From a bacterium (GTDB lineage: Bacteria; Verrucomicrobiota; Verrucomicrobiia; Limisphaerales; UBA11358), in the NCBI GenBank assembly GCA_021813325.1, contig JAKALA010000009.1, forward strand, positions 18,334 to 82,333: a DNA stretch of 64,000 nucleotides. Reading direction: 5' to 3'. Below are positions 13,197 to 51,010 of this stretch, piece by piece (positions within the stretch are counted from its first letter, which is position 1; every line of letters begins with the position of its first letter). Made by a program: the position numbers and the translations under genes. A model generated the notes under the pieces. The model saw only the letters and a program-made list of their open reading frames with translations, searched no databases and was not told the origin of the DNA.

Positions 13197-13317
13197 AGCC
13201 CAATTTTGAATTAAAAATCAGAAATGCAAAATTAAAAATGCGGGGAAACCTGTCTGTTCCGGGAAAAATTCGGGCATTGGGGAAATGCTTACCTTGGCTG
13301 CACGAATCCAAATAAAA

Positions 13318-13411
13318 TGTCAGGGTGACCACGGCAGATACGGAGCAAACTACCGTTGCTGCCTTCCGGCCCTGGCGGGGTTCGTAAGTCCACATTCCAT
13401 GGGCCCTGACG
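13318..13411 (-). ncRNA. ffs: Bacterial small SRP RNA (4.5S type)
   Basis: Minus strand ...CCCCGCCAGGGCCGGAAGGCAGCAACGGTAGTTTGC... matches the SRP RNA apical core (GGAAGG-AGCAACGGTA); ends pair GTCAGGG/CCCTGAC; directly upstream of dnaX. Confidence 0.88.
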
Positions 13412-14149: not shown

Positions 14150-16603
14150 TTAGCGTTTGTGGAGTCGGAAAAATTGGGCGGCATTGGTGGCGGGCACGTC
14201 CAGATCATACCAGCCATTCGTGTAAACGGGCGATTGCGGCAGGACTGCCCACGCGGCTGAATCGATGGCCGGCGCGGCTTCCACATCGTAGGCGGGCGGG
14301 AACATTTTCCATTTCAAGCTGATGCCGGGCGGATTCGCCATCGCGGCGGGCGGGACAATCGTCAGCCCCGGATCGTTGGTGGCTTGGGAAATTTTGGCGA
14401 TAAACATGTCGCTCGGGCCGTAACGCGCGGTCTGGTAGGCATTCAACGTCGGGAAATTGGTGGAAACCGTCTGGCCGGCGACATACACGTTGCCCAAGGG
14501 ATCCACCGCGATGGCATAGCCGGAGTCGTCATCCTTGCCGCCGAGATAGGTGGAATACAGCAGCGAACCGGCATTGGTGTTGAAGGCAATGACAAAGGCA
14601 TCCGTGTGAGGATTGACCAGATCATGGTTGGTGCTGCTCAAAAATCCATCGAGATTATTGGCGGTCACCGGAAAATTGGTGCAACTGGCCGAGCCGACGA
14701 TATAGGCATTGCCATCCGGGTCCACGGCAATTCCATTGGCGGCGTTGATGCCGATGCCGCCAAACACGGAGGAATAGCCAATGGCCGCCTGGCTGCCATT
14801 CCAAGTGATTTGCGTCAGAAAAGCGTTGGTGACCAGCGCATAATGATTGTTGAAATCGTTGGTATGAACAAATGCGGGCGGGAGATTCGCCACGTTTGTG
14901 GTGGTGTCGGGAAAATTGGTGGAAAGGGTGTAACCGCAAACATAGGCGTTTCCTTGGGCGTCGGCCGCGATGCCGGTGGCGTAGTCGTAATTCGTGCCTC
15001 CGAGCAAGGTCGAATAGAGCAGGGCGAGATTGGTCGTCGAAGCATCAAACGCGGCGACAAACGCGTCAGCTTGATTGTTAATTTGGGCGGTGTTGGTATT
15101 CCCGTTCAGATATCCAAAACGCGGGGAATCATTGGTGATGCAATGGACCGCCGGGAAATTGGTGGAATCGGTGAAACCCGCGATAAAAACGCGATGGTGG
15201 TTGAACGCAATGCACCGGGCCTGGTCCATGTTGGTTCCGCCCAGGTAGGTCGAATAGGTAAGGTTGCTGCCGCCGGAACCGATGACGGAGAGGAAGGCGT
15301 TGGCGTTCAGGTAAACGGTGTTAATGCAGGCTAAATTGGTTTGCACCGCGTTGGGCGTGACCGGGAAATTGGTGGAATAGGAGTAGCCGGTCACATAGGC
15401 GTTGTCCGCGGCATCCAAGGCAATGCCAAAGGCCGCGTCCATGCTGTTGCCGCCGAGATAAGTGGAGTAAACCAACGCATCGCCGGTGGGATTTAATTTG
15501 GTGACGAACGCATCCACGGGATAAGCCTGCAGGTCGGTGTCATAGCGACTGCGGATCGTGCGATAAATGGCATTAGTTGTTGGAAAATCCGCCGAATCGG
15601 TATAGCCCGCAACATAGGCGTTGCCGGCAGCATCCACTGCCAGGCTTAAGGCTCCGTCATTCCCGTTGCCACCCAAATACGTGGCGTAAATCAGATTCGA
15701 ACCGGTGCTGTCAAATCTGGCCACAAAAGCGTCGCCGGTGAGCTGGCCTCCATGGTAGTTGGTTTGAAAGGCGCCGGGTGTCCCCAATGGAATGCCATTG
15801 GTTGCTTGAGTCGAAAACGTCTGCCCGGCGATATAAATCGAACCGTCGGTCGGGTTCACGGCAATGGCGTAAGCCGCTTCCCCGTAGTTGCCGCCAAAAT
15901 AAGTTCCGTAGCTCAAAACCGGGTCGATCACCAAAGCCTCATCGTGATTATAATTTCCCAGGGCAAAGGCGACGGAGTTGTCGCCCAGAAGACGGTAACC
16001 AACGCTGACCGGCTGGCGCGATCCGTCAACCATCTGATAGGCCACTGGGGTGCGCTGCACAATCTCGCCCGCCTTGACTTTGATGGTCAGTTGCCCCTGG
16101 GCATCCAGCGAAATGTGGTCGGCCCCAGCGAAATGCAAGGTGATCGCGCTGGGATCAATATTGGGGCTGACATTAAAGTCGTATTCCAATTCCTGCTGGT
16201 TGCCGTAGTAAACGACGTTGATGCCGGGGTAAACATTGTTCACCTGCACTTGCGCGTAAGTCGGCTGTCCGGCCTGCCATTGATCCGGCTGGTTGCCGTT
16301 GAAATGACTGATTTTGCCGGACAAAAGCTGTTGCCCAAATATTCCCGGGTTGGGGTTGGCGCCGGCAAATTGCAGGCTGCATGCGGCCGTCGCGCCGTTT
16401 TGCTTTTGGAGTGCGAAACGAGCGCCGGTGGATGAAATGACAAATTCCGAAGCGCGGCTGCGGGAGACGAACTGGGCGTTTTGTGTGGCTTCAAAACACA
16501 AGGGAAGCTTGCCGAACGCCGTTGCGTTTTTTGCCCGCAATCCACCGGCCACGAAAGCCAGAACCAGGCTGGCGCCCAGTATTTTTTTTGCGCAGGTGTT
16601 CAT
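14150..16603 (-). CDS. SBBP-repeat (beta-propeller) secreted protein
   Basis: Many repeats of the type LxYSTYLGGxxxDxAxxIAVDxxGNAYVAGxTxSTNFP. Confidence 0.85.
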   Translation of the reverse strand: MNTCAKKILGASLVLAFVAGGLRAKNATAFGKLPLCFEATQNAQFVSRSRASEFVISSTGARFALQKQNGATAACSLQFAGANPNPGIFGQQLLSGKISHFNGNQPDQWQAGQPTYAQVQVNNVYPGINVVYYGNQQELEYDFNVSPNIDPSAITLHFAGADHISLDAQGQLTIKVKAGEIVQRTPVAYQMVDGSRQPVSVGYRLLGDNSVAFALGNYNHDEALVIDPVLSYGTYFGGNYGEAAYAIAVNPTDGSIYIAGQTFSTQATNGIPLGTPGAFQTNYHGGQLTGDAFVARFDSTGSNLIYATYLGGNGNDGALSLAVDAAGNAYVAGYTDSADFPTTNAIYRTIRSRYDTDLQAYPVDAFVTKLNPTGDALVYSTYLGGNSMDAAFGIALDAADNAYVTGYSYSTNFPVTPNAVQTNLACINTVYLNANAFLSVIGSGGSNLTYSTYLGGTNMDQARCIAFNHHRVFIAGFTDSTNFPAVHCITNDSPRFGYLNGNTNTAQINNQADAFVAAFDASTTNLALLYSTLLGGTNYDYATGIAADAQGNAYVCGYTLSTNFPDTTTNVANLPPAFVHTNDFNNHYALVTNAFLTQITWNGSQAAIGYSSVFGGIGINAANGIAVDPDGNAYIVGSASCTNFPVTANNLDGFLSSTNHDLVNPHTDAFVIAFNTNAGSLLYSTYLGGKDDDSGYAIAVDPLGNVYVAGQTVSTNFPTLNAYQTARYGPSDMFIAKISQATNDPGLTIVPPAAMANPPGISLKWKMFPPAYDVEAAPAIDSAAWAVLPQSPVYTNGWYDLDVPATNAAQFFRLHKR

Positions 16604-46049: not shown

Positions 46050-48314
46050 TCAAATCGTCAGGATGCCGCCCTGACTCGCGTTGGTGACGAGTTTTTGATA
46101 ACGCGCCAGCCAACCGGTTTTGTTCCGCTTCGCGGGCACAAAGCTCTGCTGCCGCTCCGCGAGTTCGGCTTCAGGAACAAGGATGTCCATTTTGCGATTG
46201 GGAAAATCAATCCGGATGCGGTCGCCCTGGTTCAGCAAACCAATCGGCCCCCCCTCCGCCGCCTCCGGTGAAACGTGGCCAATACACGCGCCGGCGGTGC
46301 CGCCGCTGAACCTTCCGTCGGTGATCAGCGCGACCTTGTCGCCGAGTCCCATGCCCACGATGTAACTCGTGGGCGAAAGCATTTCCTGCATGCCCGGACC
46401 GCCGCGCGGTCCTTCGTTGCGAATGACGACGACATCACCGGCCTTGACTTTGCCGGCAAGGATGCCGGCGCAAGCATCATCCTGGCTCTCAAAAATCACG
46501 CACGGGCCTTCAAAGACAAAACCCGGGCCGCAATTTTCCTTGAACGCTTGGCTGATGCCGGCGGTTTTGACCACACTGCCTTCCGGCGCAAGCTGGCCGT
46601 AAAGAATTGAAAGCCCGCCGTCGGGCGTGTAAGCCGTTTCTTTGGAGCGGATGCAATCCATCGCATCGAAGCGGAACGCCGGATCGTAAGGCAGCAGTCC
46701 GGCCGGTTGCGCCGTTTTCAGCGAGTCGGCGCGATAATCGTGATAGGCTTTGGTGATTTCCGTGCCGCGAAGGCGGCCGGTGCGGAGCAGGCAAAACATC
46801 TGTTTGTTGCCGGCTTGATATTTCCAAATGACGAGCACGGGCGAGCCTTTCAACGTGCCGAGTTCAGCGCGAACCAGGCCTTTAAACTCGCCAAACTTGC
46901 CTTTCAAGCCGGCTGCGATCTCCACACGACCTTTCCACGTTTGCGACTCGCTCAATTCCAGTTCGCCGTCTTCCGCAAACAGCACCGCCACCGCCGCCGC
47001 GTCGCTGGCGTTGAAGGCCGCCGCCAAACGCCACAACGCGATGGCGCGCGGATCGGCCGGGAAAAACAGCATCGGTTTGGGCGCGAGGTTGCCGCTGGCG
47101 GTGCGGGCCGCGCCACCCATCTTGTCGTTCGGATCCACCGCAATGGCCGAGGCTCCGGAGACGCGAACGGTTTTTGCCAGATCGGAAGCGGTTTCCGAGC
47201 GCACATCCCATTCGTCAATATTTTCGCCGAGGGTTTTGCCGGTGACGGTTTTCGCGTTCACGTTCAGGACGCCCTGGCGCTTCAATTCGCCGAGAATTGT
47301 GTGAATGCCGCCGGCGCGGTGAATGTCCTGGATGTGGTAATCCGACGACGGCGACACCTTGCAAAGGCAGGCGATGCGCCGCGAAATTTCATCAATGCGC
47401 TTGATGTTGTAAGGTATGCCGGCCTCACGGGCGACGGCGAGCGTGTGTAACACGGTGTTGGTCGAACCGCCCATCGCGACGTCCAGCATGAGCGCGTTGT
47501 CAAAGGCCTCGATCGTTGCGATGTCGCGTGGTTTCACGTCCTTTTTCACGAGCCGGATGATCGCTTCCGCCGCGCGTTGATAAAGCGCCTCGCGTTCCTT
47601 GGACACGGCGAGAATGGTGCCGTTGCCGGGCAGCGCCATGCCGAGCGCTTCGCACAGGCAATTCATTGAGTTGGCCGTGAACATGCCGGAGCACGAGCCG
47701 CACGTGGGACATGCCGTTTGCTCCAATTTCTTCAACTGATTCTCGGTGATCTTGCCCGTCTGCAATTCGCCCACGCCTTTAAACACGGAAATCAAATCCG
47801 ATTTGCCCGTCGCCGGCTGGAGATATTGCGCCATGTCATCGTGCGCCGCCTGTTGTTCGGCGATGCCAGCCGCCATTGGTCCGCCGCTGACGAACACCGT
47901 GGGAATATTGCAACGCATCGCGCCCATCAACATGCCCGGCACAATCTTGTCGCAGTTCGGTATGCATACCATGCCGTCGAACGCGTGGGCGTTGATCACC
48001 GTTTCCACACAGTCGGCGATCAGTTCGCGTGACGGCAGCGAATACAACATGCCGGAGTGGCCCATCGCAATGCCGTCGTCCACGCCAATGGTGTTGAAAA
48101 TGAACGGCACGCCGCCGGCTTCGCGGACGAGCCGCTTGACCAGCTGGCCAACCTCGTTCAGATGCGCGTGGCCGGGAATACAATCGGTGTAACTGTTGGC
48201 GATGGCGATGAATGGTTTGTCCCAATCGGCTTCGGATTCGATGGAGCCGGTGGCGCGCAGCAACGAGCGGTGCGGCGCACGTTCAAAACCTTGCTTGATG
48301 ATGTCGGAACGCAT
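46050..48314 (-). CDS. ilvD: Dihydroxy-acid dehydratase with an unusual internal insertion
   Basis: [79 protein letters not shown]; 754 aa with an extra segment at about aa 371-550. Confidence 0.92.
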
Positions 48315-48520: not shown

Positions 48521-50407
48521 TTACGCTTTCCAAATCATATCCGCGACTGTTTTGCCCGCTGGAATAAACGGTATGACGTGGGTGCTGTAAGGCACGATCA
48601 CATCCAGCACATAAGGTTCGTCGGCGTCCAACATGCGCTGCATCGCCGCGCGCAGATCTTTTTTAAACATGACCCGCTCGCATTTCACATTGAATGAATT
48701 GCAAACCCGCACGTAATCCGGATAGATTTGCGGACGATGCTCGGGATCGCCGAGATAAGTATGACCGCGGTTGCCGCCGTAGAAATTATCTTCCCACTGC
48801 ACCACCATGCCGAGGTGCTGGTTGTTAAGAATAATGGCCTTGGCGGCGATTTTCTCGATATGCGCCGTGGCCAGTTCCTGAATATTCATCAAGAAGGAGC
48901 CGTCGCCGTCGATGTCGATGACCTGCTTGTCCGGCAAAGCCACCTTGACTCCGAGCGCCGCCGGATAGCCGTAGCCCATTGATCCGAGACCGCCGCTGGT
49001 GACAAACTGGCGCGGATATTTATATTTATACCATTGGCCAGCCCACATCTGATGTTGGCCAACTCCAGTGGCAATGTAAGCTTCGCCCTTGGTCATTTCG
49101 AACAGCGTTTCAACCACCATTTGCTGCAGAATCACCTGGCTTTCCTGGCCCTCCATGTGATCCACCATGTGATCGCTGTTGGCAATTTCGGGGGTGATGC
49201 GGTAGGCAAACGGCCCTTTCTGTTTCCAAGCCTCAATTTGAGCAAGCCACGCCGAATGCTCCTTGTGGAGCGCACGCTTGGCGAGCAGCTTGTTCAATCG
49301 CGTCAACGCGTCTTTGATGTCGCCGATGACCGGAAGGTTGGCCTTGCGATTCTTATTGATCTCAGATGCGTCAATATCAATGTGAACAATCGTGCCATGC
49401 TTGCAAAACTCCTCGAACTTGCCGGTCACGCGATCGTCGAAGCGCACGCCAAACGCCAGCAGCAAGTCCGCGCCATCCTTGAGTTTCACCATCGGGTCGT
49501 TGAAGCTCTTGCGAAGTTCATATTCGCCATTCACCGCCCAGTTGGCCACGGCCGAGCCGTGCATGCCCAGCCAGCGCAACGAAAGCGGATGCGTTTCCGG
49601 AAAACCGCCGATGCCCATGAGCGTGGTCGTGACGGGAATGTTGGTCGTCTCGGCAAACTTTTTCAATTCCGCCGCCGCGCCGCTGGTGATGATCCCGCCG
49701 CCGGCATAAATCACCGGGCGCTCGGCCTTCTCGATCAGCCCGATAATTTCGTTCAACGCCACTTCATCGGCCTTCAGTTCGGGTTGATTGTAGCCGCGCA
49801 AACTGGCTTTGACTTCTTCCAGCGTGGGCCAGATGGGCTGGGCTTTTTCCTGTTGAATGTTTTTGGGAAAATCGATGACCACCGGACCGGGGCGGCCCGA
49901 TTGGGCGATATAAAACGCCTCTTTCACAATCCGCGGAATATCGTGGATGCTGGTGATCAAATAGCTGTGCTTCACAATCGGCAACGTGAGACCAATCATG
50001 TCCGTTTCCTGAAACGCGCCGCGTCCGATCATGGACTGCGTCACCTGTCCCGTGATGGCGATCAGCGGGCAGGAATCCATGAATGCGTCGGCAATAGCCG
50101 TCACCAGGTTGGTGGCACCGGGACCGCTGGTGCTCATGCAAACGCCAGCTTTGCCGGTCACGCGGGCATAGCCTTCGGCCGCGAAACTGCCGCCCTGCTC
50201 GTGGCGCGGGAGGATGGTGCGAATTTTGGATTTGGTCAGCGACTGGTGGATTTCCATGCTGGCGCCGCCGGGATAGGCAAAAATCACTTCCACCCCTTCG
50301 CGTTCCAGGGCCTCGACAAAAATGTCGCGGCCATACATGGCCTTGCCGACTTCGGCGCGTTTGGCGTTCGATTTCTTCTTGGCGGCGGATTCGGTTGCTT
50401 TGCTCAT
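48521..50407 (-). CDS. ilvB: Acetolactate synthase large subunit
   Basis: VEVIFAYPGGASMEIHQSL, RHEQGGSFAAEGYARVTGKAGVCMSTSGPGATNLVTAIADA, IDIDGDGSFLMNIQELATA. Confidence 0.93.
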   Translation of the reverse strand: MSKATESAAKKKSNAKRAEVGKAMYGRDIFVEALEREGVEVIFAYPGGASMEIHQSLTKSKIRTILPRHEQGGSFAAEGYARVTGKAGVCMSTSGPGATNLVTAIADAFMDSCPLIAITGQVTQSMIGRGAFQETDMIGLTLPIVKHSYLITSIHDIPRIVKEAFYIAQSGRPGPVVIDFPKNIQQEKAQPIWPTLEEVKASLRGYNQPELKADEVALNEIIGLIEKAERPVIYAGGGIITSGAAAELKKFAETTNIPVTTTLMGIGGFPETHPLSLRWLGMHGSAVANWAVNGEYELRKSFNDPMVKLKDGADLLLAFGVRFDDRVTGKFEEFCKHGTIVHIDIDASEINKNRKANLPVIGDIKDALTRLNKLLAKRALHKEHSAWLAQIEAWKQKGPFAYRITPEIANSDHMVDHMEGQESQVILQQMVVETLFEMTKGEAYIATGVGQHQMWAGQWYKYKYPRQFVTSGGLGSMGYGYPAALGVKVALPDKQVIDIDGDGSFLMNIQELATAHIEKIAAKAIILNNQHLGMVVQWEDNFYGGNRGHTYLGDPEHRPQIYPDYVRVCNSFNVKCERVMFKKDLRAAMQRMLDADEPYVLDVIVPYSTHVIPFIPAGKTVADMIWKA

Positions 50408-50447: not shown

Positions 50448-50479
50448 AAAAAAACCCACAGCCGTTGCCAGCCGTGGGT
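50448..50479 (-). terminator. Attenuator-type intrinsic terminator upstream of ilvB
   Basis: Minus strand ACCCACGGCTG-GCAA-CGGCTGTGGGT followed by a T run; 11-bp stem (with G-T pairs), about 40 nt before the ilvB ATG. Confidence 0.8.
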
Positions 50480-50497
50480 TCTTGTTAAATCCAGAGT

Positions 50498-50566
50498 TCA
50501 ACAAGCGCCAGCGGCGGCGTCAATTACGACTACCAGCAGGACGACTTGTGAACGGTTCTTAAACAT
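50498..50566 (-). CDS. Putative ilv leader peptide MFKNRSQVVLLVVVIDAAAGAC
   Basis: 22-codon ORF ATG...TGA with consecutive Val/Val/Leu/Leu/Val/Val/Val/Ile codons, 18 nt upstream of the terminator hairpin and directly upstream of ilvB; below the ORF-track size cutoff. Confidence 0.75.
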   Translation of the reverse strand: MFKNRSQVVLLVVVIDAAAGAC

Positions 50567-50578
50567 CGGTGAGAAATC

Positions 50579-51010
50579 TTAATTCGCAGGCTCAGTGGCG
50601 TCAAGACGCTTTTGCTCGACTTCCTTGAGGTATTTCCGCGTGGCGTCCGGCAAATCATGCCAAATTTTGATCGCCACGGCCAGCCCAAGAATGGCAAACG
50701 GCACCATAAACAACGGCCACCAATGCCAGTTCCGCGCCAGGCCCAGGAAAGTGGCGCCTTCGCCGGGTTTGTCGGCCGGCACCAAGTGCCCGATGAAGAA
50801 TGATTGGATGCCACTGCCCAGATAGGTGCATCCGTCCACGATGCCGGAACAGATCGCCGTGGCTTTGCGCCCGCCAAAATCAGTGGCCGCCGTGCCGGCC
50901 ATGAGCGAAGTCAACCCCACGGCCGCCATGACCACCAGAACACACGCAATTAGGCCAGGCAAATGCTAACAACGATGATGCCCATAAGTTTTCCAGCCTT
51001 GGAAAGTGAG
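50579..51010 (-). pseudogene. C-terminal fragment of an MFS (GlpT/UhpC-like) transporter
   Basis: VLVVMAAVGLTSLMAGTAATDFGGRKATAICSGIVDGCTYLGSGIQSFFIGHLV...; upstream GKLMGIIVVSICLA is in another frame and preceded by stops. Confidence 0.6.

Follow-up and report, generated by a model that had tools for sequence, protein, structure and literature searches.

A putative valine-coded, ribosome-mediated attenuator upstream of ilvB and its leucine-coded sister at leuA in Verrucomicrobia subdivision 3

Organization of the ilvB locus

The window, that is, the whole 64,000-nucleotide stretch analysed here, derives from a draft genome of 4.28 Mb. It carries on its minus strand ilvB (48521-50407, ATG at 50407), which encodes the 628-aa catalytic subunit of acetohydroxyacid synthase with TPP_enzyme N, M and C domains, and, about 200 nt past it, ilvD (46050-48314), the gene for dihydroxy-acid dehydratase. 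Upstream of ilvB, the gene that would be regulated, lies a short open reading frame (ORF) of 22 codons, MFKNRSQVVLLVVVIDAAAGAC*, at 50498-50566 on the minus strand, with its ATG at 50566 and its TGA at 50500-50498. The codons GTC GTC CTG CTG GTA GTC GTA ATT (VVLLVVVI) occupy 50522-50545, and an intrinsic terminator, AACCCACGGCTG-GCAA-CGGCTGTGGGTT with a T-tract, follows at 50448-50480. The original prediction had placed the leader ORF, the terminator and the ilvB start at these positions and had counted eight consecutive Val/Leu/Ile codons (50545-50522, minus strand); direct reading and the ORF listing bear out both statements. A sigma-70-like promoter at 50576-50604 (minus strand) combines a -35 element TTGACG (50604-50599), a 17-nt spacer and a -10 element TAAGAT (50581-50576); its -10 box ends 9 nt 5' of the leader ATG, and the promoter overlaps the end of an upstream ORF. 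Within the 64 kb window, the leader is the sole ATG-initiated ORF of 14-40 codons with a run of at least eight Val/Leu/Ile codons, and no comparable Val/Leu/Ile-run ORF occurred in 20 block-shuffled windows.

Several neighbouring features are recorded for completeness. The upstream ORF (50579-50962, minus strand, 127 aa) resembles the C-terminal piece of an MFS-type transporter, without a Pfam match, and its stop codon overlaps the -10 box of the leader promoter; stops interrupt the frame 5' of it, suggesting a possible gene remnant. The N and C domains of IlvD (754 aa) are separated by an inserted domain of ~125 aa (window 46659-47042, minus strand) that bears a weak resemblance to SnoaL (Pfam SnoaL_4, E 1e-4, a sub-threshold match). 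Sequences similar to this insert were present in 23 of the 97 genomes searched, the source genome included, with 34-66% identity and a patchy distribution, mostly inside frames of about 750-790 aa. The only RNA that Rfam recognised across the window is a bacterial small SRP RNA at 13315-13411 on the minus strand (RF00169, 72 bits).

Conservation of the leader among relatives

The DNA upstream of ilvB was compared within the same genus, across other families of the order and in the rest of the class. The named near relatives of the source genome are metagenome assemblies that carry the labels Verrucomicrobia subdivision 3, Limisphaerales, Limisphaera or Pedosphaera, with Limisphaerales belonging to the class Verrucomicrobiia of the Verrucomicrobiota; a few relatives are evidently mislabelled, for example as Akkermansia or Klebsiella. 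For the order itself (Limisphaerales-type, Verrucomicrobia subdivision 3), 134 loci were scanned, a redundant set in which some genomes are counted twice. A strict automatic scan, which required a Val/Leu/Ile run of at least 3, a total of at least 6, and a hairpin with a T-tract, recovered the leader-terminator unit before ilvB at 110 of them. Sixteen of the 24 misses were inspected: 13 carry both leader and terminator but have weaker Val runs, and three are contig ends. Outside the order, the same scan found the unit at 0 of 22 ilvB loci, and in other orders of the class no Val-run ORF with a terminator was seen upstream of ilvB. A covariance model of the region, run against 388 genomes of the phylum, gave strong matches only in the two sampled members of the order; the weak matches elsewhere that were inspected (L080-L084) look like ordinary gene-end terminators.

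Wherever the genus- and order-level sequences extend sufficiently far 5' of ilvB, the elements follow one shared order, namely promoter, start codon, Val-rich leader, stop, terminator and ilvB. A TTGAC-(16-17)-TANNNT arrangement precedes most of the leaders, which are 21-28 codons long and end in D-A-V/A-G-A-C or a similar sequence. Comparison of the leaders, which had been proposed as a check together with an alternative-structure analysis of the region, revealed conserved Val codons between diverging flanks, and a leader rich in branched-chain amino acid (BCAA) codons stands before ilvB across the order, as the original prediction implied. In several freshwater lineages the Val run is short or broken, as in VVPVLVGG. 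The distance from the terminator to the ilvB ATG ranges from about 65 to 180 nt among relatives, and insertions of palindromic repeats are tolerated there. These repeats, ~90-110 nt long, of the GATTAAGATTAAGA or TGGATTATTGGAT type and REP/MITE-like, lie just past the attenuator terminator in some relatives (between terminator and ilvB at L008, L026, L027, L031, L035, L068 and L070), and similar ones precede leuA in others (e.g., L127 and L136).

Translation and codon content of the leader

The spacing between the start codon and arm 2, a pairing segment at the end of the leader described below, preserves the reading frame. Among the 51 leaders whose arm 2 could be recognised, this distance was 59, 62, 65, 68, 71, 74, 77 or 80 nt, with steps of 3 in 51/51, whereas the stop-to-terminator distance varied from 16 to 22 with every remainder modulo 3 represented. 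This frame constraint indicates that the ilvB leader ORF is translated. Wobble positions within arm 2 (GCC, GCT, TGT) are nearly invariant while neighbouring wobbles vary, the pattern expected of sequence that serves RNA pairing and coding at once.

Over 57 ilvB leaders, Val accounts for 30% of residues, Leu for 10% and Ile for 2%. Judged by this composition, the signal of the predicted ilvB attenuator, originally described as sensing BCAAs in general, is mainly valine and not Val, Leu and Ile in equal measure. The leader Val codons comprise 31% GTA, 38% GTC, 26% GTT and 5% GTG, as against 3% GTA and 54% GTG among the Val codons of six window genes. The rare codon GTA is thus enriched in the leaders, to which RNA constraints could contribute.

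The start codons lie close to the promoters. From the end of the -10 box to the start codon there are 7-9 nt in 43 of 56 ilvB leaders and 6-9 nt in 25 of 27 leaders of a second element found before leuA (see below), and Shine-Dalgarno-like 4-mers occur in only one of 57 and two of 27, respectively. Such proximity places the transcription start at, or a few bases from, the start codon, and on this promoter geometry both sets of leaders are probably leaderless.

Four RNA arms forming mutually exclusive stems

Four pairing segments can be assigned on the minus strand. Arm 1, the protector (GTTCACAAG, 50545-50553), contains the Ser-Gln codons (UUCACAAG) just 5' of the Val run and pairs with the portion of arm 2 at the stop codon (CUUGUUGAA). 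Arm 2 (GCCGCTGGCGCTTGTTGAAC, 50496-50515) spans the last codons of the leader and its stop, the TGA lying inside the arm, and can pair with arm 1 or arm 3. Arm 3 (TTAACAAGAACCCACGGC, 50471-50488) pairs with arm 2 to form the antiterminator, in consensus GCCGYYGG..CUUGUYGA with UYRACAAGAACCCACGGC, or with arm 4 (50464-50453) to form the terminator, its 3' half doubling as the 5' side of the terminator stem. The competing stem CTTGTT...AACAAG noted in the original prediction is real and constitutes the antiterminator core; the antiterminator pairing, which had been left unsettled, is now assigned to arms 2 and 3.

Comparative evidence for these pairings came from exchanging arms among the 57 leaders. 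The native 1:2 stem averaged -20.4 kcal/mol against -16.9 kcal/mol after swapping, and the 2:3 stem -21.9 against -20.4 kcal/mol, with 0 of 10,000 permutations as good in either case. Among 19 mostly family-level representatives, 0 of 10,000 (1:2) and 1 of 10,000 (2:3) were as good. In distant families CUUGUUGA/UUAACAAG is replaced by CUUGUCGA/UCGACAAG, where a single pair shows 12 double changes, and six of eight protector pairs also show double changes, these being column counts from an alignment that ignores register shifts. Arm 1 also shifts along with arm 2 in distant families, for example to CGACAAG, or to GGCCCUGCAAG with CUUGUCGGGCC. The pattern indicates that arms 1:2 and 2:3 covary as mutually exclusive stems. 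The terminator is present in the minimum-energy fold, and over 35 relatives 99% of its stem cells are paired, with compensatory A-U to G-C changes. The region holds a short translated ORF with a run of codons for the pathway product, an intrinsic terminator, an exclusive antiterminator, a protector stem 1:2 and a stop codon within arm 2, where a terminating ribosome would cover that arm.

Ensemble folding before the emergence of arm 4 was then considered for different ribosome positions. Over 57 leaders, a ribosome placed in the first half or middle of the run gave an antiterminator probability of 0.86-0.87; the value was 0.63 once the ribosome stood at the end of the run and 0.00 once it had reached the last sense codon or the stop. 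For the window sequence it was 0.79 mid-run, 0.00 at the stop and 0.08 without a ribosome, so that in this model antiterminator formation is confined to ribosome positions within or 5' of the Val run. The antiterminator also forms without a ribosome in 72% of leaders (mean 0.65), hence arm 1 does not protect strongly in all of them, and for many relatives the protector stem is weak in the folding model. When the sequence upstream of the terminator was shuffled, the probability was still 0.41; folding alone is therefore weak evidence, and the case rests mainly on the swap and covariation tests. The minimum-energy fold of the whole leader departs only slightly from expectation (z -1.9), and no weight was placed on it. 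With arm 4 present, the terminator had an equilibrium probability of 1.0 at every ribosome position in the two sequences examined, implying that the switch must be kinetic, as is usual for such attenuators, and leaving the co-transcriptional stage as the informative one for folding.

A leucine-coded sister element before leuA

The next match of the covariance model in the source genome (30.6 bits) lies before leuA, on contig C85 at 15419-15535 (L072/L110), and has the same architecture and promoter geometry; the model thus recovers both the ilvB element and its sister genome-wide. The leuA leader of this genome reads MIANLNLLLTNARLTSAADGF* and has an intrinsic terminator downstream. Across 27 leuA leaders from the source genome and relatives (MNRNLNLLLTNALLTSAAVGF-like), Leu makes up 30.5% and Val 4.5% of residues. 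The corresponding codon counts are 170 Leu and 25 Val at leuA against 396 Val and 129 Leu at ilvB (Fisher p about 1e-54, relatedness ignored). The antiterminator probability was 0.93 in the middle of the Leu run and 0.00 at the stop, and in the arm-swap test 0 of 10,000 permutations were as good. These counts indicate that leader codons follow the product of the pathway, Val at ilvB and Leu at leuA, and the pair, sharing an architecture and differing in codons, offers a clean natural experiment and control on codon-specific sensing. Inspection by eye of the source genome showed no further attenuators before two trpE-like genes or homoserine dehydrogenase; runs of four His codons are too common in this genome to be informative.

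Proposed mechanism and alternative explanations

We interpret the ilvB element as a classical four-arm, ribosome-mediated transcription attenuator through which ilvB expression would follow the level of charged valyl-tRNA, with some Leu input, and assign this reading a probability of roughly 90%. Every comparative test available here supports the ribosome-mediated attenuation originally proposed. The parts, their conservation and covariation, the frame constraint and the switch to Leu codons at leuA are observed, and from them we infer the physiological response. Transcription would start at or just 5' of the leader AUG, with leaderless initiation. When Val-tRNA is plentiful, the ribosome would reach the stop codon in arm 2 and cover this arm, allowing the 3:4 terminator to form and transcription to stop. 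When Val-tRNA is scarce, the ribosome would stall on the GTC/GTA run and cover arm 1, leaving arm 2 free to pair with the emerging arm 3; on the presumed kinetics, the terminator would then form too late and ilvB would be transcribed. For the window sequence, pairing of arms 1 and 2 in the absence of translation would favour termination. The cell could in this way gauge its valine supply through translation of the leader that precedes the first gene of Val/Leu/Ile biosynthesis.

Among the alternatives, an action of the leader on translation, through access to the ribosome-binding site or re-initiation at ilvB rather than through termination, has a precedent in Actinobacteria, where leader peptides are proposed to act in this manner (leuA LEU element; PMC1262725). 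We regard it as very improbable here, given the conserved intrinsic terminator with its T-tract and paired stem, and given that the variable, repeat-interrupted distance from the terminator to the ilvB ATG would be poorly tolerated by re-initiation.

T-boxes control ilvB genes in some bacteria, and others are under ppGpp riboswitches (PMC10272879); accordingly, a metabolite-binding riboswitch or T-box might govern the terminator, with the ORF incidental. Yet no Rfam family reaches its threshold at the site, the best sub-threshold scores being His_leader at 18.6 bits (cut-off 49) and NsiR1 at 21.7 bits (cut-off 39), and at ilvB no T-box, ppGpp aptamer or specifier loop was detectable with Rfam, nor did any amino-acid leader family score above its gathering cut-off. 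The interval from promoter to T-tract, about 125 nt and nearly all coding or switch arms, leaves scant room for an aptamer, and the change of codon identity to Leu at leuA also speaks against an incidental ORF, making this explanation less probable still. Hardly credible is the view that the hairpin merely terminates the upstream transporter gene and that the Val-rich ORF arose by chance: the upstream ORF does end at 50579 on the same strand, 12 nt before the leader ATG, but the transporter gene is found in only 7 of 70 loci while ilvB keeps its promoter, leader and terminator, the leader frame, codons and arms are conserved, and a promoter lies where the upstream ORF ends, immediately 5' of the leader.

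Beyond the attenuator itself, a broader scenario is that an order of Verrucomicrobiota evolved its own leaderless four-arm pair, Val-coded at ilvB and Leu-coded at leuA, independently of Proteobacteria and Actinobacteria, as an unnamed RNA family in which ribosomes would load directly on a 5' AUG or GUG. We consider this to have a little better than an even chance of being correct. The probable leaderless start raises the testable question of how fast a 70S ribosome can load and still keep up its coupling to RNA polymerase.

Comparison with known attenuators

Proteobacteria and Actinobacteria are well-known hosts of leader-peptide attenuators at ilvB, and such attenuators have been proposed for Leptospira and the ilvB-OMG motif (PMC1262725, PMC10272879, PMC11857589, PMC13236596). 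In 2010, none was stated to be known outside Proteobacteria and Actinobacteria before the Firmicutes case newly described in that work (PMC2965389). Within the open-access full texts searched, no report of amino-acid attenuation in Verrucomicrobia was found. The mechanism is ordinary, of the trp/ilv type, and is apparently new for the Verrucomicrobia subdivision 3 lineage and absent from Rfam. It would extend amino-acid attenuation to a phylum without a report in the literature searched, in a group of little-studied soil and freshwater bacteria.

The Escherichia coli ilvBN leader is a ribosome-mediated attenuator with a Val/Leu-rich peptide, exclusive stems and an intrinsic terminator before an acetohydroxyacid synthase gene, and a conventional leader has its own ribosome-binding site. 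The window element shares the Val/Leu-rich peptide, the mutually exclusive stems and the intrinsic terminator with this system, and the ilv-operon architecture of the original prediction stands; the host, however, is a member of Verrucomicrobia subdivision 3 and not a proteobacterium. The element differs from ilvBN in showing no similarity that Rfam models detect and, in most leaders, a start codon 7-9 nt past the -10 box with no Shine-Dalgarno sequence seen.

In Corynebacterium, the ilvB-II motif, or ilvBNC upstream ORF (uORF), likewise combines a short BCAA-rich uORF, a terminator and an antiterminator before ilvB (PMC10272879, PMC11857589), and the Mycobacterium tuberculosis ilvB1 attenuator has these parts too and uses regulatory Val codons that include GUA (PMC13236596), an arrangement resembling the present one. 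Both belong to another phylum, and the corynebacterial uORF usually has 15-17 codons, in contrast to 21-28 here, where a parallel Leu-coded attenuator also precedes leuA. The ilvB-OMG and Leptospira ilvB RNA motifs, reinterpreted as BCAA-codon-rich uORFs that are also Thr-rich (PMC10272879), are similarly structured RNAs with such a uORF before ilvB; their peptides differ in the additional Thr, and the sequences described here match no such Rfam family. Finally, the Actinobacteria LEU element carries a Leu-codon run before leuA and a pseudoknot onto the leuA Shine-Dalgarno sequence (PMC1262725); the Verrucomicrobia leuA element shares the Leu-codon run, with an intrinsic terminator in place of the pseudoknot design.
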